This document shows, piece by piece, positions 6,372-40,138 of a stretch of DNA of 45,436 nt. Position 1 is the first letter of the stretch. The number at the start of each line of letters is the position of its first letter. The position numbers were made by a program, and so were the translations under genes. Under the pieces are notes generated by a model, which made no database searches, was not told the DNA's origin, and worked only from the letters and a program-made list of their open reading frames with translations. Where the stretch lies: the NCBI GenBank assembly GCA_003023565.1, contig PXSA01000035.1, forward strand, positions 9,101 through 54,536, in the 5' to 3' direction. The DNA comes from Halobacteriales archaeon QS_9_68_17. Its GTDB lineage: Archaea; Halobacteriota; Halobacteria; Halobacteriales; Natronoarchaeaceae.

Positions 6372-6444
6372 GCCGCCGTAGCTCAGCTGGTAGAGCACCT
6401 GGTTGTTACCCAGGTTGTCACAGGTTCGAGCCCTGTCGGCGGCG
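6372..6444 (+). tRNA. tRNA-Asn (anticodon GTT)
   Basis: A 73-nt cloverleaf. The acceptor is GCCGCCG with CGGCGGC, the D arm contains GCTC...GAGC, the anticodon stem is CCTGG with CCAGG around loop TTGTTAC (anticodon GTT), and the T arm is ACAGG with CCTGT around TTCGAGC. The discriminator is G and CCA is not encoded. No intron. Confidence 0.96.
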
Positions 6445-6528: not shown

Positions 6529-6603
6529 GGGCCCGTAGCTAAGTCCGGTAAAGCGCCCGGCTCATAACCGGGCGATTCCTTGGTTCGAATCCGAGCGGGC
6601 CCA
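6529..6603 (+). tRNA. tRNA with CAT anticodon (elongator Met or Ile2)
   Basis: A 75-nt cloverleaf. The acceptor is GGGCCCG with CGGGCCC, the anticodon stem is CCCGG with CCGGG around loop CTCATAA (anticodon CAT), and the T arm contains GGTTCGAATCC. The discriminator is A and no CCA is encoded. It is not an initiator: there is no A1-U72 pair and no three G-C pairs ending the anticodon stem in the initiator pattern. It has no intron, whereas I recall the elongator tRNA-Met of H. volcanii having one, so AUA-decoding tRNA-Ile2 (agmatidine-modified CAU) is a serious alternative. The last 22 nt of the tRNA are repeated at 6710-6731. Confidence 0.92.
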
Positions 6604-18359: not shown

Positions 18360-19123
18360 TCAGACCGCGTCCCGGATCGCCGGCAGCACCTCGGTGACGT
18401 CCGCCCGGAATGCGTAGTCGGCGCGGTCCTCGACCGAGGTCGGGTCGTGGTCGACGACCGCGCGTCCGCCTTCCCGGCGAGCGCCCGCGCCTCCGCGAGC
18501 GCCGCCTGCGGCAGCCGCTCGCCGAAGAGGACGGTGTCGGGCTTCAGGAGGCCGCCACAGTCGCAGTTCGGCGGCGTCTCACCGTCCTCGCGAGACGGCG
18601 TCGAGCGAGGGCTCGATGAGCTTCGCTCATCGGCGGCCTCGACGCGCTCGATGACCCCCTCGGTGTCGCGCGTCTCACCGCAGTCCCGACAGACCGTCCG
18701 GTCGCCGGTGCCGTGGAGTTCGACGACGCGCTCCGACCCCGCTTCCTGATGCAGGCCGTCGACGTTCTGCGTTACGACGGCGTCGAGGTGTCCGGCGGCC
18801 TCCAGGTCCGCGAGCGCCTCGTGGGCGGCGTTCGGGGAGACGTCGCCGCGTATCTCGGCGTGGAGGTCGAGCTAGTCCTCCCAGAACGGCCCCGGTTCGG
18901 CGAGGAAGCGCCGGACGTGGAAATCGTCCGTGTCGTAGCGCTCCCAGAGGCCGTCCTCCCCGCGGAAGTCGGGGATGCCGGAGGCCGTGCTGACGCCCGC
19001 GCCGGTCAGCGCGACGGCCTCGTCGGCGGCCGCGAGGGCGCGCGCGACCGCGTCGACGTCGTCGGCCCGTGCGGTACCGGCGTCCGCCGCGTCGTCGCGA
19101 GGGGTCTGACCGTCGTCGTCCAT
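18360..19123 (-). pseudogene. sir2: Sir2-family NAD-dependent protein deacylase, broken
   Basis: The N-terminus (ATG at 19123) has the NAD-binding motif VALTGAGVSTASGIPDFRG. An in-frame TAG at about 18870 follows PFWED. The same frame then continues with LDLHAEIRGDVSP, the catalytic TQNVDGLHQEAG, the zinc Cys pairs (TVCRDCG and NCDCGG) and LKPDTVLFGERLP. At about 18460 it jumps from LAGKAD into another frame reading VVDHDPTSVEDRADYAFRADVTEVLPAIRDAV. The segment normally holding the GSSLTVEPA NAD-site motif is missing. So there is one nonsense change and one frameshifting internal deletion. A palindromic insert lies between the zinc Cys pairs. The H. volcanii sir2 homologue is, as I recall, dispensable. 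Confidence 0.88.
18591..18632 (+). repeat. Palindromic element inside sir2 (two hairpins)
   Basis: The element contains hairpin CGAGC-GAGG-GCTCG (18602-18615) directly followed by an 8-bp perfect stem CGATGAGC-TTC-GCTCATCG (18614-18632). The first 25 bp (18591-18615) match 23561-bp-region sequence 23556-23580 in the MBL gene at 23 of 25 positions. The second hairpin resembles 27191-27209 in the acyl-CoA synthetase gene, with compensatory stem changes. In the protein it adds a low-complexity Ser/Arg stretch between the zinc-binding Cys pairs. Confidence 0.8.
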
Positions 19124-19170
19124 ACCGCCGCGTAGGGCCGCCCGGTCGAAAAAGGCGGCGTCGCAGCGCG

Positions 19171-20655
19171 TCAGTCGTCCGCCTTCAGGTTGAACACCGG
19201 CGTCAGCGTCTCCTCGACGGTCGCCGTTTCCTCGATGCGGTCGAGGACGACGTCGCGGTCCTTGTACGCCATCGGGGCCTCGTCGAGGGTCGCCTCGGAG
19301 ACGCTGGTCGAGAACACCCCGTCCATCTCGTCGGCGAACTCCGCGACCGAGAACTCCTCGTGGGCCCAGCGCCGCGACCCCCGGCGGCCGGCACCGTGAG
19401 GCGCGGACCGGTTCCACGCGTCGGCCCCCTTCCCGCGGACGATGACCGCCCCGTCGCGCATGTCGAACGGGACGACCGCGCGCTCCCCCTCGTGGACCCG
19501 GGTCGCCCCCTTCCGGATCACGTGGTCCTCGAAATCGATGTAGTTGTGCGTCGACTCGATCGTCTCCTCGACGGCGGCGTCGAGCGCGTCGGCGACGGCT
19601 CGCGTCATAACGCGTCGGCTCTCGGCGGCGTAGGTCTGTGCGAACACCATGTCGCGCAGGTAGCCGTGGCGGTCAGCGCCCTCGAGGTAGTCGAGGTCGT
19701 CCCCGTCGCCTTCCTCGCGGACCGCCTCGGTGACCGCCTTGAGGCGACCGTGGATCTCGTCGATCCGGTCGGGGTCGCTGTCCTCGAACCGCGCCGCGAC
19801 GGCGTCCATCGCCTTCCAGTCCTCGCCCATGCCGCCCTGCAACCAGTTCAGCAGGTCGCGGTCGGTCACCTCGTCGAGGTCGAAGCGGTAGAAGTCGCTG
19901 TCGACCGCCGCGAGGCTGGCGCGCGCCGTCGCGGCGCGGTCGTCGCAGGCGCGGTGGGCCTGCTCCTGCCAGTATTCGGCGATAGTGAGGCCGATGCCGC
20001 GGGACCCGGAGTGGACGACGGCCCAGAACGCGCCGGTCTCCTCGGACCGCGCTATCTCGACGAAGTGGTTCCCGCCGCCGAGCGTCCCGAGCGAGTCGAT
20101 CGCGCGCTTCGGACTGTAACCGAGGCGGTCACAGAGCCCGAGGAAGTACTCCTTCCCGTACCCCGGCGACTCGATGGGCCGGCCGTCCCAACCCTCGTTG
20201 AGCGTGCTGAGCTTCGCCTCGCATCGCTCCCACGGGAAGTCGTCGACGAGGTGGTACTCCTGTGCGGGGTAGCCCTCGTCGCCGAACGTGCTCCGCCCGA
20301 GGGGGACGGCGGCGCGGACCCGCTCGTCGAGTTCGCGCAGTCGCTCGGGCGACCCGAACTCGTCGGCGAGGCGGTCGGTGTCGCCGAGGCGGACGGCGGC
20401 CACCCCGCAACCGATGTCGACGCCGACCGTGTTCGGGCAGATCCGGTCGCCGAGTTCCATCGTGAACCCGATGACCGCGCCCGCGCCGGCGTGGGCGTCC
20501 GGCATGACCCGGACGGGGTTGCGGAACGCCTCGTGGTCCACGAGCGTCTCCACCTGCTCGATGCAGGACTCGTCGACCGCCTCGGTCTTGATCTCCGCGG
20601 TCGTGTGTTCGCCCTCGACCTCGATGGTTCCCGACCGACGGTCCCCGCCGGTCAT
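19171..20655 (-). CDS. rtcB: RtcB RNA ligase (tRNA-splicing)
   Basis: A 494-residue protein with all RtcB motifs in order: MPDAHAGAGAVIGFT, VGVDIGCGVAA (metal-binding), GTLGGGNHFVE, HSGSRGIG, HNYIDFEDHVIRKGAT, and the guanylylation region APHGAGRRGSRRWA, where the His accepts GMP. RtcB joins 2',3'-cyclic-phosphate and 5'-OH RNA ends. In archaea it ligates tRNA exons after intron removal and is GTP- and Mn2+-dependent. There is no intein and no frameshift. The ATG at 20655 has a promoter-like region in the 170-bp gap to the acyl-CoA dehydrogenase gene. Confidence 0.95.
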   Translation of the reverse strand: MTGGDRRSGTIEVEGEHTTAEIKTEAVDESCIEQVETLVDHEAFRNPVRVMPDAHAGAGAVIGFTMELGDRICPNTVGVDIGCGVAAVRLGDTDRLADEFGSPERLRELDERVRAAVPLGRSTFGDEGYPAQEYHLVDDFPWERCEAKLSTLNEGWDGRPIESPGYGKEYFLGLCDRLGYSPKRAIDSLGTLGGGNHFVEIARSEETGAFWAVVHSGSRGIGLTIAEYWQEQAHRACDDRAATARASLAAVDSDFYRFDLDEVTDRDLLNWLQGGMGEDWKAMDAVAARFEDSDPDRIDEIHGRLKAVTEAVREEGDGDDLDYLEGADRHGYLRDMVFAQTYAAESRRVMTRAVADALDAAVEETIESTHNYIDFEDHVIRKGATRVHEGERAVVPFDMRDGAVIVRGKGADAWNRSAPHGAGRRGSRRWAHEEFSVAEFADEMDGVFSTSVSEATLDEAPMAYKDRDVVLDRIEETATVEETLTPVFNLKADD

Positions 20656-20825
20656 CGGTCGTCACCTCGCGAACGTCGCCGGTGCCGACGCGACGGCCGG
20701 CGGGCGGTAGCGTTCATACCGACCCGGTTCGGGCGACCCCCTAATGCCTCTTGTTGAGAGGTGGTAACACGGCGGGGGGACCGGAATCGAGGCGATCGCG
20801 ACGGTTCAGCGCCTCTCGCTGCGTC

Positions 20826-22040
20826 TCAGCCTTCGTACCGCGTAACGCCCTCGATGGCGGACTCGTCGACGTCCGCGAAGGCGTCCCGGGCGATCACCCG
20901 GCGGTGGACCTCGTCCGCGCCGTCGATGACGCGGAACGCCCGGACGTTCTCGTAGAAGTCGGCGAGCGGCAGGTCCTTCCCGATGCCGTTGCCGCCGCAG
21001 ACCTGGATCGACTCGTCGATGGCGTGCTGGACGGTGTTGGCGGTGAACACCTTCGACATGGCGACCGGGACGCGGGCCTCCTCGCCCTCGGCGATAGAGC
21101 GGGCGGCCTGTCGGACCATCGACCGGGCGGCGTGCAGTTCCGTCTCCACGTCGGCGATGCGGTGGCGGATCGCCTGTTTCTCCGCGATGGGGCCGTCGAA
21201 GGCCTGCCGCTCGGTGGCGTACGCCTTCGCCACGTCGAGCGCCCGGTCGGCCATGCCGGAGAAGCGCATGCAGTGGGTGAGGCGAGCGGGGCCGAGTCGG
21301 CGCTGGGCGACGGCGAAGCCGGCGTTCTCCGCGCCCAGCAGGTGCTCCTCGGGCACCCGGACGTTCTCGTACCGTATCTCCGCGTGGCCCGTCCCCGTCA
21401 CCTCGCCGCCGGTATGGGGGATATCGCGGACGACCTCCACGCCGTCCGTGTCCGCGGGGACGAGGATCATCGAACAGCCCTCGTAGGGGTGAACGTCCTC
21501 GTCCGTGCGGGCCATCACGATGAGGACGTCGGCCTCCGTGCCCTGCGTCGTCCACCACTTGTGGCCGTCGATGACCCACTCGTCGCCGTCTCGCTCCGCG
21601 GTCGTCTCGATCATCTTCGGGTCCGACCCGCCGCCCTGCATCGGCTCGGTCATCGAGAAGCCGGAGCGGATCTCACCCGCCGCGAGCGGGCGGAGCCAGC
21701 GTTCCTTCTGTTCCTCCGTTCCGACCATCTCCAGCGTGTGCATGTTCCCCTCGTCGGGCGCGTCGCAGCGCAGCGCCGCCGCGCCAAGCAGGCTCCGGCC
21801 CGCCGCCTCGAAGACGGGCAGCATCTCGCGGAAGTCGAGGCCGAGACCGCCGTACTCCTCCGGGATCTGCGGACCGTACAGGTCGCGCTCGCGGGCCTCG
21901 TCGCGGAGGTCGGCGACCGTCGACTCGCCCACGGGGCCGTTCCCCAGCAGCTCTCGCTCGACGGGGATCACCTCCTCGTTCACGAACCCGCGCGTCCGCT
22001 CGGCCACCTCGCGCCCTCGCTCCGGATCGTGGTAGTCCAT
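20826..22040 (-). CDS. Acyl-CoA dehydrogenase family protein
   Basis: A 404-residue flavoprotein. N-terminal helical domain MDYHDPERGREVAERTRGFVNEEVIPVERE; middle beta domain with GFSMTEPMQGGGSDPKMIETTAERDGDEWVIDGHKWWTT; C-terminal domain with YATERQAFDGPIAEKQAIRHRIAD and VCGGNGIGKDLPLADFYENVRAFRVIDGADEVHRR. It would oxidise an acyl-CoA at the alpha-beta bond and pass electrons to ETF. The substrate cannot be told, and the divergent start and length resemble the ACAD10/11-like bacterial and archaeal branch. I chose the ATG at 22040 (another is at 22052). On the minus strand a GTTTTTACC box at about 22065-22075 is a plausible TATA. The gene is divergent from the R2-like gene. Confidence 0.88.
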   Translation of the reverse strand: MDYHDPERGREVAERTRGFVNEEVIPVERELLGNGPVGESTVADLRDEARERDLYGPQIPEEYGGLGLDFREMLPVFEAAGRSLLGAAALRCDAPDEGNMHTLEMVGTEEQKERWLRPLAAGEIRSGFSMTEPMQGGGSDPKMIETTAERDGDEWVIDGHKWWTTQGTEADVLIVMARTDEDVHPYEGCSMILVPADTDGVEVVRDIPHTGGEVTGTGHAEIRYENVRVPEEHLLGAENAGFAVAQRRLGPARLTHCMRFSGMADRALDVAKAYATERQAFDGPIAEKQAIRHRIADVETELHAARSMVRQAARSIAEGEEARVPVAMSKVFTANTVQHAIDESIQVCGGNGIGKDLPLADFYENVRAFRVIDGADEVHRRVIARDAFADVDESAIEGVTRYEG

Positions 22041-22203
22041 GGCGCTTACCATGCGCGGCGCGGGGTAAAAACTTTCCCCGGATTGGCTGTTCACACGGTT
22101 GCCTCCGGTCGGCCATCGCGCGGAACCGCGCCGCCGGGAACCGCTTCGAGACACGCTGCCGGTTGCACCCGCGTTTGTTCCGGGTCGTGGTGACGAGTAC
22201 CGT

Positions 22204-23093
22204 ATGAGGGAGACGCCGCGGCTCACCCTGACTCCGGACGACCGGCGCTACCGGTACTACCGGAACGCGGTCGAGCGTCACCGGGACCCCGGCGAGTTCG
22301 ACCTTTCGGCCGACCGCGGACGCATCACCGCGCTCCCGGAACGCGGCCTCACCGACTTCCGCCGGACGCCGGCGCTGTTCAGTGCCGGGGAGCAGGCCGT
22401 CACGGAAGCCCTCGCGCCGCCTGCCGTCGTACTGGAGGACCCGAACGATCGGGCGTTCGTGGCGAGTCAGGTCTACGAGGAGGAAGCACGCGGACTTCTT
22501 CGACAGGTACCGGCGAGAGGTGATCCGCCACGCCGAGGACGAACTCGGCGTCGAGCGGACCGACCCGTCGGACCCCCGGTGGTTCGCCGACGCTTGCGAG
22601 GAGCTGTTCGACCGCGACGAGCGCGCGATGGGACGCTTACTGACAGAGGACAGGTCGGAGACCCGCGCCGGCGCGTACTACCACTGCCACCTCACCGTCG
22701 AGGGGATACTGGCGCGGACCGGCTACTACGGCGTGCGGACGAACTTCGGCGGCGACGCGGCGGAACTGCCGACCCTTCCCGGACTCGTCGGGGGCCTCTC
22801 GAACACCCGCAGCGACGAGGGGCGACACGGGGGTCCGGGATGGCGAAACCGAAGGCCCTCGTCGGCGACGGGAGCGTCGACCCCGAGTTCCTCCGGGAGA
22901 CGGTCGGCGAACTCGTCCCGCTCACGCAGTCTATCGTCGGCGCGTCGGCCGACGACAGTCGCCCGGCCTCGGGGAGGACGACCTCATCGCCTACGCCGCC
23001 GAGCGTCACACGGACAGGATGACCCGGATCGCCGACAGCGGTGCCGGACTGCCGAGCGTCGCGGAACCGACGCGGCTGGAGGAGAACTATTAG
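22204..23093 (+). pseudogene. R2-like di-iron oxidase (ribonucleotide reductase small-subunit-like), three frameshifts
   Basis: Conserved blocks are spread over three frames. Frame 1 from ATG 22204 reads MRETPRLTLTPDDRRYRYY to FVASQVYEEE. Frame 2 from about 22488 reads KHADFFDRYRREVIRHAED, YHCHLTVEGILARTGYYG and LSNTRSDEGRH. Frame 1 resumes at about 22838 with GMAKPKALVGDGSVDPEFLRE. Frame 3 from about 22965 reads GLGEDDLIAYAAERHTDRM to LEENY and stops at 23093. The iron-binding ExxH, E and ExxH residues of the ferritin-like fold are all recognisable (EEEKH, VEG, DEGRH). Each shift needs only a 1-2 nt correction, so this is either a very recent pseudogene or uncorrected sequencing error. It matches R2-like ligand-binding oxidases more than true RNR subunits. 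Confidence 0.75.
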
Positions 23094-23110
23094 TCGTGAA
23101 AACTACACTA

Positions 23111-23125
23111 AAATTTAATATTTAT
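23111..23125 (+). promoter_or_regulatory. TATA promoter for the MTH865-like gene
   Basis: AAATTTAATATTTATG is the most AT-rich stretch nearby and is centred about 26 nt upstream of the ATG at 23144. GGAGG at 23135-23139 sits 5 nt before the start codon, an unusually clear Shine-Dalgarno for this genome, so a short-leader transcript is likely. Confidence 0.65.
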
Positions 23126-23143
23126 GCCCCCGAAGGAGGCGGT

Positions 23144-23395
23144 ATGGCGGACGAACAAGAGATCCGACAGCAGATGATCGACGCTTTCGAAGGCGCAGAC
23201 TACCCCATCTCCAGCCCCATGGACCTCGTTCCCGCGCTCCCCGACGGCCCGGGGACGAAGTTCGAGTCCGGCGACTTCTCGATGACGGCGATGGAACTGA
23301 ACACGAAACTGCCCGGCGGCGACTTCCCCTACGACTCCCCCGAGGCGTTCGTCGACGACGTCATCCAGAACCTCAAAAGCGAGGACTACATCTAG
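23144..23395 (+). CDS. MTH865-like small protein
   Basis: An 83-residue acidic protein: MADEQEIRQQMIDAFEGADY, then PISSPMDLVPALPDGPGTKFESGDFSMTAMEL and PYDSPEAFVDDVIQNLKSEDYI. Length and the PI.S..DL..ALP.GP.T.F..GDF...A.EL pattern fit the MTH865-like EF-hand-fold family of archaeal proteins of unknown function. It is intact between two frameshifted genes and has its own strong TATA box and Shine-Dalgarno sequence, which implies high and independent expression. Confidence 0.82.
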   Translation: MADEQEIRQQMIDAFEGADYPISSPMDLVPALPDGPGTKFESGDFSMTAMELNTKLPGGDFPYDSPEAFVDDVIQNLKSEDYI

Positions 23396-23404
23396 GCCGG
23401 CCCG

Positions 23405-24241
23405 ATGGTCGAGCCGGTCGATGACCGCCCCGACGTGTACGCCGTCGATACCGAACTCCTCGACTCTCCGGGGCCGATAGCCGCCCACGTCGTCGACGCG
23501 GAACGGCCCGCCGTCGTCGACCCCGGCGCGGCCACCGTCACCGGTCCCGTCCCCACGAGACGGCGTCGAGTGGGGGCTCGTGGAACTCGTTCCACGGCGT
23601 TCTCGACGCGCTCGACGAACTGGGCATCGCGCCCGATGGCGTCGCGTATCCGTTCCCGACGTACGTCCACCTCGACCACGCCGGCGCGGCCGGGGCGCTC
23701 GCCGACGCCCGTCCGAACGCGACAGTGCTGGTCCCCGAGGACGGCGCGCCGTACGCCACGGACCCGGAGCGACTCGACGCGCCGTTCGAGAGCGCGAAGC
23801 GGGCCATCGCCGAAGTCGCAGAGGCGTACGGCGAACCCGACCCCGTACCCGCCGAGCGGTGCGAGACGCTGGCCGACGGGGACGTTATCGACCTCGGCGA
23901 CCGCCGCCTCGAAGCGGTCGACGCGCCGGGACACGCGCCCCACCAGCACGCGCTGCTCGCGGAGGACGGCACCCTGTTCGCGGGCGCGCCGCCGGCGCGT
24001 GGCCGGGCGACCGCTGTATCCGACCAGGCCCGGTCCGGACTTCGGTCCGGAGGAGGCGGTCGACACCGTCGAGCGCCTGCGCGACCGCGCCCCGGACGCC
24101 GTGCTGTACGGGCACTTCGGTGCCCGCGAGGGGTGCGACGACGCCGACGCCGTCGTCTCGAACCTGCCGTCGCGGTGGGCGTCCAGTCCGGCAATAGCGG
24201 GCGACGTGCGGGGCGTCCTCCGCTACCTGCGGACTGAGTGA
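23405..24241 (+). pseudogene. MBL-fold metallo-hydrolase, three frameshifts
   Basis: Frame 2 from ATG 23405 gives YAVDTELLDSPGPIAAHVVDAERPAVVDPG. After a palindromic insert (23553-23583), frame 1 gives WNSFHGVLDALDELGIAPDG, the metal-site block FPTYVHLDHAGAAGALAD, PVPAERCETLADGDVIDLGDR and VDAPGHAPHQHALL. Frame 3 at about 23990 gives AAGAWPGDR. Frame 2 again from about 24018 gives LYPTRPGPDFGPEEAVDTVERL and LYGHFGAREG to the stop at 24241. The zinc-ligand motifs HxHxDH-like (HLDHAG), GHAPHQ and YGHFG are kept. Normally this would be a metal-dependent hydrolase of unknown substrate. The two later shifts need only 1-2 nt corrections. Confidence 0.8.
23553..23583 (+). repeat. Palindromic element inside the MBL gene
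   Basis: The outer stem CCACGAG (23553-23559) pairs with CTCGTGG (23577-23583). The internal 25 bp (23556-23580) are 23 of 25 identical to 18591-18615 in the sir2 gene. The insertion falls exactly between the first beta-strand block and WNSFHGVLDAL of the MBL protein and coincides with the first frameshift, which suggests the insertion or its later decay broke the frame. Confidence 0.8.
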
Positions 24242-26627: not shown

Positions 26628-28231
26628 TCGTCGGCCTCTCGGAGTTCGAACTTCTGGACCTTGCCGGTGGTCGTGCGGGGCAGTTCCTCGACGAAGTCGA
26701 CCTGGCGGGGGTGCTTGTACTCCGCGAGGGTCGACAGGCAGTACTCCCTGATCTCGTCTTCGGTCACGTCCGCGTCGGGCGTCGGCACAACGTAAGCCTT
26801 CACGGTCTCGCCGCGGCGCTCGTCCGGGATCCCCACGACGGCGGCGTCGGCGACGGCCTCGTGTTCGAACAGCAACTCCTCGACCTCGCGCGGGTAGACG
26901 TTGTACCCGCCGGTGACGATCACGTGCTTCTCCCGGTCGATGACGTAGAAGAAGCCGTCCTCGTCGTGGTAGCCGATGTCGCCGGTGTGGAACCAGCGCT
27001 TGCCGTCGCGCTCGGTAAACGCCTCCTCGTTCGCCTCCGGCAGCCCGGAGTAGCCCTTCATCACGTTCGGGCCGGCGACGACGACCTCGCCGGTGATCTC
27101 GTCGAGGTCGACCGCCTCCTCGTCGACTGGCCCCGTCTCTATCGGCGGCACCTCCTCGAACCCCTCGTTATCGGACGCTGTCCGGTCGCTCGAGGCGCTT
27201 CGTGCCTCGGTGTCGACCACTCTCGAGTCGACGCCCGGCAGGGACTTGCCGATGCTGCCGACGCGCCGACCGGCTTCGGGGCTGTTGAAGTGGGTGACGG
27301 GGCTGGTCTCGGTGAGGCCGTACCCCTCGTAGACCGTCGCGTCGTACAGTTCCTCGAACCGGCGAAGCACCTCGACCGGGATACCGGAGCCGCCGACGCC
27401 GCAGAGCCGCAGCGACGAGAGGTCGAACTCCTCGGCGTCCGGCTGGTTGATGATGTCGTTGTACATCGCCGGTACACCTTGGAACAGCGATAGCCCCTCG
27501 GACTGGATGAGCCCCACCGCCTGCTCGGCGTCCCACGACGGCAGCGGGTAGTACGCGCCGCCGCTGAACAGCGTCGCGTTCATCACGACGGTCATCCCGT
27601 AGATGTGAAACAGCGGCAACACGCCCAGGCTCTTGTCGTCCGGGCGAATGCCGTCGGGCACCAGATCCGCGGCGACCTCCGCGTTCGACGTGAGGTTGTC
27701 GTGCGTTAGCTGGACCCCTTTCGGCTGTCCCGTCGTCCCACTGGTGTACGGCTGGACGGCGAGGTCGTCGTCCCCGCGGTCGACCACGTCGTGCGTCCCG
27801 TCGGCGAGGAACTCCTCGAACGGGGTCCCCGTCTCGGCCTCGCCGCCGACCGTGATCAGGTGTTTTACCGCCGTCTCGTCGCGAACCGCCTCGACGAACG
27901 GCGCGAGGTCCGCGAGCGCGACGACCGCCTTGGCCCCGCTGTCGCCGAGCAGGTGGCTGATCTCCCGCGACTTGTACTGCGGGTTCATCGGCACGACGAC
28001 GCCGCCGGCCCGGAGCGTGCCGTGGAACGCGGTGACGAACTGCGGCAGGTTCGGCAGGTACACGCCGACCGGGTCGTCGGGTTCGAGCCCGTGGTCCGCG
28101 AGCGCCTGCGCGAACTGCCCAGTCCGCCGCCAGAGCGCCCCGTAGGAGACGTCCGTCCCGTCGAACTGTACGGCCGTCCCCTCCGGCCGCTCGTCCGCTC
28201 CCGAGGCGACGTTCCTGACGAGATTTGTCAT
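26624..28231 (-). CDS. Long-chain or medium-chain acyl-CoA synthetase (class I adenylate-forming)
   Basis: A 535-residue AMP-forming ligase that activates a carboxylic acid to acyl-CoA. The motifs are PYTSGTTGQPKGV (P-loop), YEGYGLTETSP, WFHTGDIGYHDEDGFFYVIDREKHVIVTGGYNVYP, and the C-terminal catalytic Lys in ELPRTTTGKVQKFEL. A low-complexity insert (residues about 341-355, EARSASSDRTASDNE) splits VVDTE from GFEEVPPIETG. At DNA level it is a two-hairpin palindromic element that keeps the frame. A TTTTATAGCC box about 30 nt upstream of the ATG at 28231 is the likely promoter for this gene and the downstream hydratase gene. Confidence 0.92.
   Translation of the reverse strand: MTNLVRNVASGADERPEGTAVQFDGTDVSYGALWRRTGQFAQALADHGLEPDDPVGVYLPNLPQFVTAFHGTLRAGGVVVPMNPQYKSREISHLLGDSGAKAVVALADLAPFVEAVRDETAVKHLITVGGEAETGTPFEEFLADGTHDVVDRGDDDLAVQPYTSGTTGQPKGVQLTHDNLTSNAEVAADLVPDGIRPDDKSLGVLPLFHIYGMTVVMNATLFSGGAYYPLPSWDAEQAVGLIQSEGLSLFQGVPAMYNDIINQPDAEEFDLSSLRLCGVGGSGIPVEVLRRFEELYDATVYEGYGLTETSPVTHFNSPEAGRRVGSIGKSLPGVDSRVVDTEARSASSDRTASDNEGFEEVPPIETGPVDEEAVDLDEITGEVVVAGPNVMKGYSGLPEANEEAFTERDGKRWFHTGDIGYHDEDGFFYVIDREKHVIVTGGYNVYPREVEELLFEHEAVADAAVVGIPDERRGETVKAYVVPTPDADVTEDEIREYCLSTLAEYKHPRQVDFVEELPRTTTGKVQKFELREADE
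27166..27209 (-). repeat. Palindromic element inserted in frame in the acyl-CoA synthetase gene
   Basis: A 42-nt in-frame insert bounded by GAG codons. It carries hairpin CGGAC-GCT-GTCCG (27172-27184) and hairpin CGAGGCGC-TTC-GTGCCTCG (27191-27209), given in plus-strand orientation. The second has the same loop, stem length and flanks as the sir2 hairpin at 18614-18632, with base pairs exchanged in both stem strands. Confidence 0.78.
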
Positions 28232-31420: not shown

Positions 31421-31727
31421 CTGGCAGAGAGGAGTAAGCCCCCTTCTGTTCGTTCCGGCATTCGGCTGAGCGTCCGCGCCGCGTCCGGGCTACCCCGTAG
31501 CGCGGACTTGCACCGGCGAGGTTTCGCCGTTCCATCGTTCCTCGACCGTCTGTCCTCGGCGGGTCAACTCCCCTCCCTCGCGGTCGGGTTCGCGCGCCCT
31601 CATCGGTCACCCGCCCGGACGGTGGGGGGACTTTCCTCGCGGGCGCGGGCCGCCCTGAGGCAGGCCCGCGTTGGACGAACGGGACGTCTCCGACCCGAAC
31701 GCCGCGGCAGCCGGACTCTCTCTACCG
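31421..31727 (-). ncRNA. rnpB: RNase P RNA (archaeal type A)
   Basis: On the minus strand the 5' conserved box GAGGAAAGTCCCCCCACC (about 31619-31636) and the 3' box ACAGAAGGGGGCTTA (about 31434-31448) form the P4 helix (CCCCC with GGGGG). GGTAGAGAG (about 31718-31726) pairs with CTCTCTGCC (31423-31431) as P1. GAACGGCGAAACCTCGCCGG resembles the P10-P12 region. It is the catalytic RNA for tRNA 5' maturation. A CTTAACG box (about 31749-31756) sits 25 nt upstream as TATA. At about 307 nt it is shorter than the haloarchaeal RNAs I recall (roughly 350-435), so a helix may be missing. The ends are estimated from P1. Confidence 0.88.
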
Positions 31728-37750: not shown

Positions 37751-40138
37751 TCACTCGACGGCGACGCCGGTGACCTCGAAGCGAGCGCCGCCGGCGTCGC
37801 TCTCCGTCGCGGACACCGACCAGCCGTGAGCCTCCGCGACCTCGCGGACGATCGCGAGGCCGAAGCCCGTCCCCTTGAGCGTCGAGGAGTACCCCCATTC
37901 GAAGACCGTGTCCCGGTCCCCCGGCGGGATCCCCGGCCCGTCGTCCTCGACGTAGAACCCGACGGGGCCGCGGGACTCCCCCGCCGCCTCCGAGTCGTCG
38001 GTACGCGCATCCGCCGACAGACTGCCGACGGAGACCGAAAGCACCGCGTCGCCGGGAGCGCCGCCGGCCTCGGCCGCGCCCTCCTGTGGCAGGCGGTCCG
38101 CGGCGGCTCCTGACCCGACATCGTCCGCGGAGGGAGCGTCGAGCACGTCGTCGCGAGGGGGTGCAGTTGACCCGGCGGACGCGTCGTGTTCGACCGCGTC
38201 GTCGGCCGCCGACCGACTGCTCGCGGAACCGCGTTCCACGGCGTCCCGACGAGCATGAGCGTCGGGACTGGTCGAACCGTGTTCGACCGCGTTGCGAAAG
38301 AGGTTCTCGAACAGTTGCAGGAGGCGGCGGCGGTCGGCCCCTACCGCGGCGTCGGTCCGAACGTCGAGTCGCGCGCCGCGGGTGTCGACGTTCCCCCACG
38401 CTTCCGCGGCCGCCTCCGACAGCGAGACCGGCGACGGGTCGGTGACGTCGCGCCCCGAGCGGGCGAGTTCGAGGAGGTCGTCCGTCATGCGCTCCATCCG
38501 GTCGATCGCGTCTGCCACCTTGTCCAGGGCGTCGACGTCGCCCTCCTCGCGGGCCAGTTCCAGATAGCCGTCGGCGACGGAGATCGGGTTGCGGAGGTCG
38601 TGACTGACGACGCTCGCGAACTCGTCGAGTTGCTCGTTCTGGCGCGCCAGCGTCCGCTCGCGCTCCCGGAGCTCCGCCTCGCGTTCCGCCCGTGTCATCG
38701 CGGCCGCGGCGTTCGCGGCGAGCACCGACGCGAGCCGAACCTGTGCGTGGTCGGGGTCGAACGCGTCGGTCGTCGCCGCGCCCAGCGTGCCGCGGTCGCC
38801 GAGCGGAAACACGGCGACGCCGCTGAGCGGCGTCTCCTCGTCCCGCAGGGCGTCGACCTCGCTGACGTCGTGGTACACGATCGGGTCCCCCGTCTCCAGC
38901 ACCGTCCCCTGTACCCCCTCCCCGACCTCGAACGAGGGGACCGGGTCGTACAGGTCGAGCACCGTGTCGGTGTACGCGACGGGGCGCAACTCGCCCTGCT
39001 CGGCCAGATGGACCGACGCGTATTCGAGGCCGAAGATCTCCTGGACGGCGTCGACGGTGCGCTCGGCGACGGCCTCGGGGGTCTCGGCGCGCATCAGGTC
39101 GCGGCTGGCCGCCTGAATCGCTTCGAGCGACCGCTCCCGCGACCGCCGTCGCGTCACGTCCCGGAGGACGATGACGGCCCCCTGCCGGTCGCCAAGCGGG
39201 GTCAGTCTGGGTTCGAAGTACCGGGCGTCCGCGCCGGCGTCGAACGCGACCTCGTCGGTTATCGCGTCCGCGTCGAGGTCGACGGCGGCGGCCACTTCGG
39301 GGAACGCCCCGGGGAACTGCTGGCCGAGCGGGTCGGCCACGGCGGACAGGTCGAGCGCTGCCGGGTTGACGTCGACGACGTGCCCGCTCCCGTCGATTGC
39401 CACCATCGGGTCGTCCATCCGGTCGACGACCGCCGAGCGGGCGACCGGCGAGATGTCGAACAGCCGGTAGTCGTACAGCGCCCAGAACACGACGACGCCG
39501 TTGACGACGAAACCGAACGGCGTCAGGTCGAGGTACGGGACCGGCGAGACGCGGGTTTGGTACGCCACGTTGGCGAGCGTGGGCGCGACCGACGCGCCGA
39601 GAACGAGCAGCGACTGCCGCCGGTAGAGACCCGTCGATTGGACAGCGATGCTCGCGATGAGGACCATGCCCGCCGTCACGAGGAGGTAGCTGACGGCGAC
39701 GCTCGCCCACCAGCCGATGGCGTACTCGACGACGAGGAGCCGGTACGGCCCCTCCGTCACCAGAGCGGGGTCGGACCAGAACAGGCCGTGGACCGGGTTC
39801 GTGAACGAGAGCGCCGCCGTGACCACCGCCGGAGCGACGACGGCGACCACGACACTGGGGGTCATCCGGTCCCCGTAGTCCGCGTAGTCGAGCGTGAACA
39901 GCGTCCACAGCGCCGGGACGAACGCGATGACGGCCGAACGCAACTGGAACAGCGAGAGCGCCGTCGACACGTCCGTCGCGGTGAGTTCGACCGCGAACCC
40001 GAGGAGCCACAGCGCGTTCGCCGCCATCATCGCGGCGAAGTACCGCCCGCCCGGCCGCTCGCGGCGCTGCCAGGTGAACGCCGCGAGACCCCCGGCCAGG
40101 AGCGTCGCGGCGACCGTCCCCGCCAGCAGAGCAGTCAT
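37751..40138 (-). CDS. Membrane sensor histidine kinase (7TM N-terminus, PAS, GAF, HisKA, HATPase)
   Basis: A 795-residue protein from ATG 40138. The N-terminal seven-helix sensor (about 1-225; the HisKA-7TM pattern with RSAVIAFVPALWTLFTLDYADY and NPVHGLFW) is followed by a PAS domain (about 235-340, MDDPMVAIDGSGHVVDVNPAAL) and a GAF domain (about 355-500). HisKA has the phospho-His in EFASVVSHDLRNPISVADGYLE, and HATPase has the N-box NLFRNAVEHGSTS, G1 VEDDGPGIPPGD and G2 TGFGLAIVREVAEAHGW. Between N-box and G1 is an unusual low-complexity stretch of about 110 residues with degenerate N-box copies (DAVERGSAS, DAVEHDASA). No response regulator is adjacent. It would sense a membrane or redox signal, ligand unknown. 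Confidence 0.9.
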   Translation of the reverse strand: MTALLAGTVAATLLAGGLAAFTWQRRERPGGRYFAAMMAANALWLLGFAVELTATDVSTALSLFQLRSAVIAFVPALWTLFTLDYADYGDRMTPSVVVAVVAPAVVTAALSFTNPVHGLFWSDPALVTEGPYRLLVVEYAIGWWASVAVSYLLVTAGMVLIASIAVQSTGLYRRQSLLVLGASVAPTLANVAYQTRVSPVPYLDLTPFGFVVNGVVVFWALYDYRLFDISPVARSAVVDRMDDPMVAIDGSGHVVDVNPAALDLSAVADPLGQQFPGAFPEVAAAVDLDADAITDEVAFDAGADARYFEPRLTPLGDRQGAVIVLRDVTRRRSRERSLEAIQAASRDLMRAETPEAVAERTVDAVQEIFGLEYASVHLAEQGELRPVAYTDTVLDLYDPVPSFEVGEGVQGTVLETGDPIVYHDVSEVDALRDEETPLSGVAVFPLGDRGTLGAATTDAFDPDHAQVRLASVLAANAAAAMTRAEREAELRERERTLARQNEQLDEFASVVSHDLRNPISVADGYLELAREEGDVDALDKVADAIDRMERMTDDLLELARSGRDVTDPSPVSLSEAAAEAWGNVDTRGARLDVRTDAAVGADRRRLLQLFENLFRNAVEHGSTSPDAHARRDAVERGSASSRSAADDAVEHDASAGSTAPPRDDVLDAPSADDVGSGAAADRLPQEGAAEAGGAPGDAVLSVSVGSLSADARTDDSEAAGESRGPVGFYVEDDGPGIPPGDRDTVFEWGYSSTLKGTGFGLAIVREVAEAHGWSVSATESDAGGARFEVTGVAVE
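38183..38293 (-). repeat. N-box-derived repeats with a long palindrome inside the histidine kinase gene
   Basis: Three related copies of the N-box coding sequence are at about 38270-38293, 38222-38246 and 38184-38203. GTGTTCGACCGCGT is exactly repeated at 38186-38199 and 38279-38292. Between the first two lies a perfect 9-bp stem, GTCCCGACG with CGTCGGGAC (38243-38268, 8-nt loop). The frame is preserved throughout. Confidence 0.75.

Follow-up and report, generated by a model that had tools for sequence, protein, structure and literature searches.

The stretch of DNA analysed here, hereafter the window, comprises 45,436 nucleotides of the Halobacteriales archaeon QS_9_68_17 (contig PXSA01000035.1, positions 9,101 to 54,536 of the forward strand) and carries, within a sir2-type and an MBL-type gene, two copies of a short hairpin element, termed A and B, respectively. 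An earlier note on this DNA had drawn attention to a 25-bp match between the two genes, and 18591-18615 and 23556-23580 are indeed identical at 23 of 25 positions on the same strand. Dinucleotide-preserving shuffles of the window give a chance expectation of 0.01 for the 25-bp match, with two matches in 0 of 100 shuffles. The similarity runs past the 25 bp: a BLAST search with copy A and its surroundings (71 bases in all) recovers copy B at an E-value of 3.6e-10 and further copies on other contigs of this genome with E-values as low as 2e-13. A covariance model built from ten copies, copy A among them (R1), finds two more, weaker copies in the window, so that the features under study are:

18360..19123, minus strand: sir2-type gene with copy A (boundaries approximate; name from the earlier note)
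18582..18637, minus strand: copy A, two-hairpin element, best match of R1 (E 8.1e-20, with A in the model seed)
18591..18615, minus strand (noted earlier on plus): the 25 bp in copy A, covering hairpin 2 and the start of hairpin 1
23405..24241, plus strand: MBL-type gene with copy B (name from the earlier note)
23547..23601, minus strand: copy B, same element, antisense in the MBL-type gene
23556..23580, minus strand: the 25 bp in copy B
27165..27214, minus strand: weaker copy L316 (R1 E 1.4e-4), DTEARSASSDRTASDNE, in frame in an open reading frame (ORF) that we take to be AMP-ligase-like
38196..38245, minus strand: copy L074 (R1 E 2.8e-8), DAVERGSASSRSAADDA, downstream of a FRNAVEH motif in a presumably histidine-kinase-like ORF

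The inverted repeats that had been described on the flanks of both copies are present, but the description understates the structure, as each copy forms, on the minus strand, two hairpins in succession; compared with shuffles, the 71-base stretches have only moderately lower folding energies (z -1.6 to -2.2). Both copies also sit where the protein alignment expects nothing, as the same note had remarked, the segment being missing from six of seven sir2 relatives and from the congener copy of the MBL gene. Copy A is in the sense orientation and in frame, between two cysteine pairs of the sir2-type gene, and encodes ..AADERSSSSPRSTPSREDG..; the frame is kept across the insert, with, in this assembly, an in-frame TAG upstream of it and a frame change downstream. 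Copy B amounts to a net insert of 50 nt after the AAC of AACG (minus strand) and breaks the frame of the MBL-type gene, which is lost again near 24000, whereas the congener copy (L175, 81% identical over 849 nt) runs uninterrupted through the site. Given these two losses of frame, the MBL-type gene is probably dead.

The ORF chain at 22200-23095 also appears broken by frame changes; with the sir2-type and MBL-type genes, this seems to make either three damaged neighbouring genes or a stretch of poor sequence.

The genome of QS_9_68_17 (G000, a draft assembly of 2.88 Mb in 42 contigs, 89% complete) holds many more copies, with 57 matches to R1 and 33 to R2, a sequence-only model from the same ten copies. 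Both counts refer to E<=0.01, which served as the R1 threshold for this genome and for a set of 21 genomes, with E<=1e-5 for larger samples of the order and the phylum. Four of the 57 are a different intergenic repeat, and several of the weakest are out of frame and doubtful. Counts that include G000 put the element in 19 of the 21 genomes and, for the order Halobacteriales, in 127 of the 195 sampled genomes, covering 44 of 66 genera. Matches in the phylum sample come from 14 of 148 genomes, all 14 within the order, the 134 unmatched genomes comprising at least 10 of the order and at least 10 outside it. The number of R1 matches per genome is uneven, with 10-16 in congeners, 31 in G015, 39 in G006, 47 in G008 and 57 in G000, as would be expected of bursts. 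A 22-base pattern additionally matches Halomicrobium katesii, Halopiger goleimassiliensis, Haladaptatus sp. DYF46, Halorubrum amylolyticum, Halorubrum yunnanense, the complete genome of Halorussus aquaticus and haloarchaeal assemblies; on these pattern matches R1 gives at least 43.9 bits for haloarchaeal loci and at most 23.5 bits, or nothing, for bacterial ones. One haloarchaeal plasmid matches (Halomicrobium urmianum), and the query with one sub-family found no match in phages.

The copies share a common plan, which reads on the minus strand RAC-RCC, hairpin 1, AGC, a hairpin 2 of variable length and GAC-GNN, giving the occupied form GAC-[RCC-hp1-AGC-hp2-GAC]-GNN (hp, hairpin). The length of the element is mostly 45, 48 or 51 nt, adding about 15-17 amino acids. 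Hairpin 1 has an 8-bp stem with a loop of mainly 3 nt, typically CGATGAGC-GAA-GCTCATCG, and sub-families are distinguished by hairpin 2, for example CCTCGCTCGACNNNGTCTCGCGAGG, GATCGGAACTCNNNGAGTTCTGAT and AGTCGGACGCAGTCCGAC. The insertion point follows the GAC of GACGNN, sometimes the AAC of AACG, and the site looks duplicated as GAC...GAC; as a rule, GAC or GACG plus up to two bases is repeated at the ends, the exception being the iPGM gene with GACGCCATC on both sides. Among 82 copies selected from the 102-copy set described below, the right-end window contains GACG in 65, and the other end, on the opposite strand, reads GGY. Copies encode a hydrophilic peptide rich in Ser and Asp, about D-[TA]-x-E-[RQ]-SSSS-x-R-x-x-S-D-D-G. 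Tandem copies occur at a period of 48 or 51 nt, with three on contig C22 and five, at 48 nt, in G224.

Stem sequences vary among copies yet remain complementary, clearly so in hairpin 1. This was scored with a fixed geometry in 102 copies, a set that excludes the 13 weakest of the 57 matches of G000, several tandem neighbours, the bacterial loci matched by the 22-base pattern, and L091, L093, L094, L096-L099, L102, L108, L109, L339, L349, L350 and L352. Complementarity holds for pair 7-21 in 83% and for pair 8-20 in 86% of the copies, where shuffles in which the 3' letters are redealt reach at most 57% and 48%, respectively. Pair 8-20 occurs as all four Watson-Crick types and connects the third position of one codon with the wobble position of a Ser codon, and is therefore not predicted by protein constraint. 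Because R1 rewards pairing, the covariation test was repeated with copies found by R2 (28 of the 33 matches, leaving aside four copies of the other intergenic repeat and one copy that R1 does not match): both pairs are complementary in 20 of 28, which 0 of 5000 shuffles match, and the value for pair 11-17 is reached by 2 of 5000. In hairpin 2 the best stem scores at least 7 in 44 of 102 copies, compared with 1 of 102 mononucleotide shuffles. In addition, at the second of two sites in the iPGM gene, two pairs of hairpin 1 are changed on both sides between G000 and three other species.

Fourteen genes with a copy in G000 were compared with their orthologues in 3 to 12 relatives per gene, and 131 of 133 orthologous sites are empty, the only occupied ones being sir2 in G001 and TrxR in G010. 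Three of eight loci were used for PDH E1-alpha, the five lower-scoring ones, paralogues, having been dropped, and G009 and some G011 and G012 loci entered for few genes only. Carriers supported by NCBIfam are PpsA, thioredoxin reductase, PDH E1-alpha, PurU, iPGM, PurA, HemC, AhcY, GatA and GatD, to which we add genes that we take to be GET3-, Hef- and MetE-like and the sir2-type gene. At least one congener has an in-phase GACG at the empty site for 13 of the 14 genes, and of the 54 empty congener sites as a whole 45 have one; for comparison, window genes totalling 6634 nt (about 2211 codons) contain 96 codon-initial GACG. Relative to congeners, 12 of the 14 genes have a net gain of 45, 48 or 51 nt. 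Since the sites are mostly empty within the genus, the family and other families, the inserts are most simply read as gains in the lineage of G000. A few codons are filled elsewhere as well: that of PpsA in Haladaptatus and a Natrialbaceae assembly (three lineages in all), and those of TrxR in G010, the Hef-like gene in a Halobacteriales assembly and a presumably acyl-CoA-dehydrogenase-like gene in G007. The iPGM gene (L068) contains two different elements 183 nt apart, the second site being filled also in two Halorubrum species and one haloarchaeal assembly. Use of a single site by different lineages, together with the tandem arrays, suggests sequence-directed insertion. A single-sequence AlphaFold2 model of a small carrier protein from Halopiger (L115), presumably cupin-like, reaches a mean predicted local distance difference test score (pLDDT) of only 34.

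The copies largely respect the reading frame of their hosts. Among the 134 matches listed from 56 other genomes, 125 have a length of 2 mod 3, as do all but six of the 47 matches of G000 at E<=1e-3 (41/47). Frame calls relied on a codon model trained on four window genes only, under which 15 of the 57 rows of G000 and 27 of 37 rows of relatives have flanks too weak to judge; the coding frame around L074 is likewise weak. Both flanks are coding for the remaining 42 matches of G000, and 37 of these are sense, in phase 0 and in the same frame on both sides; in four, including copy B, frame or strand differs from one flank to the other, and one, a weak match, is antisense. Ten rows of relatives could be judged, with nine sense in phase 0 and one showing a frame change. 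GACG alone lies sense in phase 0 at 40% and antisense in phase 0 at 30% of its occurrences in window genes, so that a sense share of about 57% is expected among phase-0 sites. With copy B as the antisense case, 37 of 38 sense copies have a probability of about 2e-8, and adding the weak antisense match (37 of 39) gives about 2e-7. Such a bias would result from selection against antisense copies, and also from insertion that prefers one strand.

The hairpins are, as judged from these comparisons of sequence, a real, dispersed and coding-compatible family that behaves as mobile DNA, and they probably constitute a family of very small non-autonomous mobile elements of haloarchaea. The dispersed copies and clean empty sites support the proposal of the earlier note that a small mobile or dispersed repeat enters coding regions: the genome-wide search returns far more than two copies, the element recurs across the order, and the sites in homologues are almost all empty. 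Beyond that proposal lie the two-hairpin unit of ~50 bp with its covarying stems, the GACG sites, the mostly kept frame and the disruption of a host gene by copy B. In the mechanism that we suggest, copies would spread as single-stranded hairpin DNA, and a trans-acting factor or enzyme would recognize mainly the fold and the GAC ends. Insertion would occur between the GAC and the G of GACG and would each time restore GACG at the right end, which would account for the tandem arrays. Selection would then retain sense, in-frame copies, because they add only a Ser/Asp-rich loop, whereas antisense or out-of-frame ones, such as copy B, would kill the gene and be lost.

A number of observations weigh against this reading. 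No transposition event was observed, mobility being read from aligned genomes, and, the assembly being an incomplete draft, sequencing errors may account for the frame breaks in the window. HemC has gained only 33 nt net, perhaps through insertion and deletion together, and the MetE-like gene has gained 54 nt at a site without GACG. Sites filled at the same codon in different lineages could reflect reuse, but also transfer. Within hairpin 1, pair 10-18 does not rise above shuffles (1005 of 5000) and the other four pairs are nearly constant, while covariation in hairpin 2 is modest (mean longest stem 5.25, compared with 4.21 when halves are swapped). Some resident copies have partly decayed stems (sir2 in G001, L236; L076; L078), and the stems are so variable that the assignment to one family rests on the architecture and on several sub-families. 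As for a mobilizing enzyme, the search of the 89% complete G000 for Y1_Tnp gives 0 matches, reverse transcriptase (RVT_1) is matched in none of the 21 genomes, and the number of TnpB matches does not track that of R1 matches (32 and 1, respectively, in G017; 5 and 57 in G000).

The copies might instead be remnants of IS200/IS605-type (Y1, HUH) transposons, two end hairpins having been fused and moved by Y1 in trans, an explanation that we consider possible though unlikely. Such remnants would resemble the palindrome-associated transposable elements (PATEs) of Haloquadratum, of which one is mentioned in a 52-bp form in the excerpted text of PMC3119063, or the repetitive extragenic palindromic (REP)/RAYT systems, and would be cut next to a short target. 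The two hairpins and the short, asymmetric target agree with this, no true duplication is needed if the GACG at both ends represents target plus cleavage site, and Y1_Tnp is found in 13 of 21 genomes, including the element-rich G006 and G008. However, G015, with 31 R1 matches and 81% complete, shares with the likewise incomplete G000 the lack of a Y1_Tnp match; R1 on 20 of the 27 Y1 loci yields a single match at E<0.005 (L292:56-109), and TnpB numbers do not parallel copy numbers. Palindromes are also substrates for replication errors such as template switching, and hairpins could have formed or spread by template switching or quasi-palindrome slippage with no enzyme-driven mobile element involved. 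The tandem arrays and stems that look re-templated, for instance the target TACGAC within hairpin 2 of HemC and, in iPGM, the sequence present on either side, speak for such an origin, which is nevertheless improbable, for the same architecture and related sequences recur at dozens of unlinked sites in 44 of 66 genera, the sites are mostly GACG and empty in relatives, and local errors would not transplant distant sequence.

Halophile-specific protein loops are often read as salt adaptation, and the hydrophilic, Ser/Asp-rich peptide would suit an acidic or Ser-rich loop of that kind, the similarity of the DNA then being due to codon bias. We give this very little weight: pairing matches the final two positions of a codon with a Ser wobble base and the base that opens the following codon, which, like the four Watson-Crick types at pair 8-20, is not predicted by protein selection, copy B lies antisense and breaks the frame, and 131 of 133 orthologous sites lack the insert. 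Selection for a functional mRNA structure is, in our view, likewise highly improbable. The covariation on the sense strand and the shared iPGM site, with its two-sided changes in two stem pairs, would be expected of a functional RNA, but Rfam at the gathering threshold gives no match for the element in the window and ten other copy-bearing loci, the hosts are unrelated housekeeping genes in which it is mostly absent from congeners, and some shared copies have lost pairing. The draft state of G000, with its 42 contigs, is the one point in favour of an assembly artefact; as named records also carry copies, among them the complete genome of Halorussus aquaticus and two Halorubrum species, artefact or chance similarity has practically no probability left. 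Similarity by chance or codon bias was rejected on the shuffles, the BLAST E-values, the 57 R1 matches and the covariation.

As far as literature searches tell, the haloarchaeal hairpins are new, although in-frame palindromes are already known elsewhere; among the open-access titles and abstracts listed, none concerned a haloarchaeal in-frame palindromic element. REPINs are built of two hairpins that form one non-autonomous mobile unit, like the present element. Compared with REPINs and REP-RAYT systems, the haloarchaeal end is GACG rather than GTAG, the hairpins are not inverted copies of one another, and the genome of QS_9_68_17 has no Y1 match. In the copies inspected, the element ends are not mutual inverted repeats, unlike those of miniature inverted-repeat transposable elements of DDE transposons, which also come with a longer target duplication than the few bases repeated here. 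CGTC-tagged REPs (Di Nocera et al. 2013, PMC3733652) have, in the excerpts of that paper, no known dedicated transposase, and some lie in ORFs. On its opposite strand the haloarchaeal element similarly has at its start an unpaired CGTC, located at the base of a hairpin (65 of 82 copies). By contrast, the bacterial repeats, as excerpted there, have loops of 4-5 nt and a CCA tail and are mostly extragenic, whereas the haloarchaeal element has loops of mainly 3 nt, GGY at the other end and a mostly coding location. The first two stem pairs of CGTC-tagged REPs are complementary AT residues; in the haloarchaeal element hairpin 1 opens with C-G and G-C, and hairpin 2, next to the tag, was judged by eye. 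Moreover, in haloarchaea the CGTC 'tag' is already present in most empty sites (GACG in 45 of 54 congener sites).

The nearest haloarchaeal elements met in the literature, as far as the excerpted source goes, are the PATEs and small mobile repeats of Haloquadratum, which, like the present element, are too short to encode a transposase and lack a target duplication (PMC3119063). According to the same excerpts, PATEs have near-terminal palindromes, a further likeness, and are tied to IS605-type ends, a difference; the small mobile repeats, at 80-110 bp with terminal inverted repeats, differ from the in-frame element; neither is described there as an in-frame coding insert. Palindromic elements in frame in housekeeping genes are reported, in the portions of the sources at hand, for Rickettsia, Wolbachia and Methanocaldococcus jannaschii (PMC10969869, PMC2229807, PMC2996958), and like these the haloarchaeal element is short, in frame, spread over assorted housekeeping genes and divided into several families. 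Like protein-coding palindromic elements in general, it lies in frame in unrelated genes and is absent from orthologues. Rickettsia elements are given in those portions as about 105-150 bp, compared with the net insert of 45-51 nt in 12 of 14 genes here, and differ, as described there, in that the haloarchaeal element has two short hairpins, the GAC-G target, filled sites at the same codon in several lineages, tandem arrays and an occurrence across most of the genera sampled from a single archaeal order. As size, double hairpin and defined target differ, we place the element in the broad kind of coding palindromes and not among Rickettsia palindromic elements. The repeat class proper to PMC2996958, a different one, was not seen in archaeal genomes according to its excerpted text.

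A bolder and, at present, speculative reading to which we give a minor chance is that an undescribed class of mobile hairpins compatible with coding pervades the Halobacteriales and would move as single-stranded DNA through a host or trans factor that reads hairpin shape and GAC-G, not stem sequence. The unpaired CGTC tag of the bacterial CGTC REPs would then be a target site outside the repeat proper, and the coding palindromes of Rickettsia, Wolbachia and haloarchaea would belong to one ancient transposase-less system. The order Halobacteriales includes laboratory hosts, and many pairs of occupied and empty sites are available between related genomes. The present elements are archaeal, apparently recently active mobile DNA that persists in housekeeping enzymes by way of seemingly harmless loops, and some halophile-specific loops of haloarchaeal proteins may be insertion scars. 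The movement of transposase-less bacterial palindromes is described as unresolved in the excerpts of PMC3733652, a question for which the haloarchaeal element offers a target and an anatomy.

In presumably histidine-kinase-like genes of several genera (L074, L105, L092, L114, L089, L351) the element is present, often as tandem copies, at or just past the FRNAVEH-type motif. The DNA of this motif, for example AACGCCGTCGAACAC, is similar to the 5' half of the element, and the motif may be a hot spot or even the source of the family.

Four loci of relatives (L094, L091, L108, L096) have R1-like double hairpins without clear phase-0 coding, such as CTCGTGAGCGAAGCGAACGAG and CGGAAGAGCGAAGCTCTTCCG, and are possibly an intergenic branch of the family. 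The other intergenic repeat of G000, about 110 bp long, occurs at L304 (C30:18096), L305 (C2:37363), L306 (C18:32) and L315 (C28:61328), in stretches without clear coding on both sides. Its copies are 96-100% identical over 85-111 nt and contain several hairpins, of which R1 matches the GGAACGAGTTCC hairpin, and two of the four lie at contig ends. Rfam places an archaeal RNase P RNA at 31423-31726 (minus strand) of the window and tRNA genes at 6372-6444 and 6529-6603.

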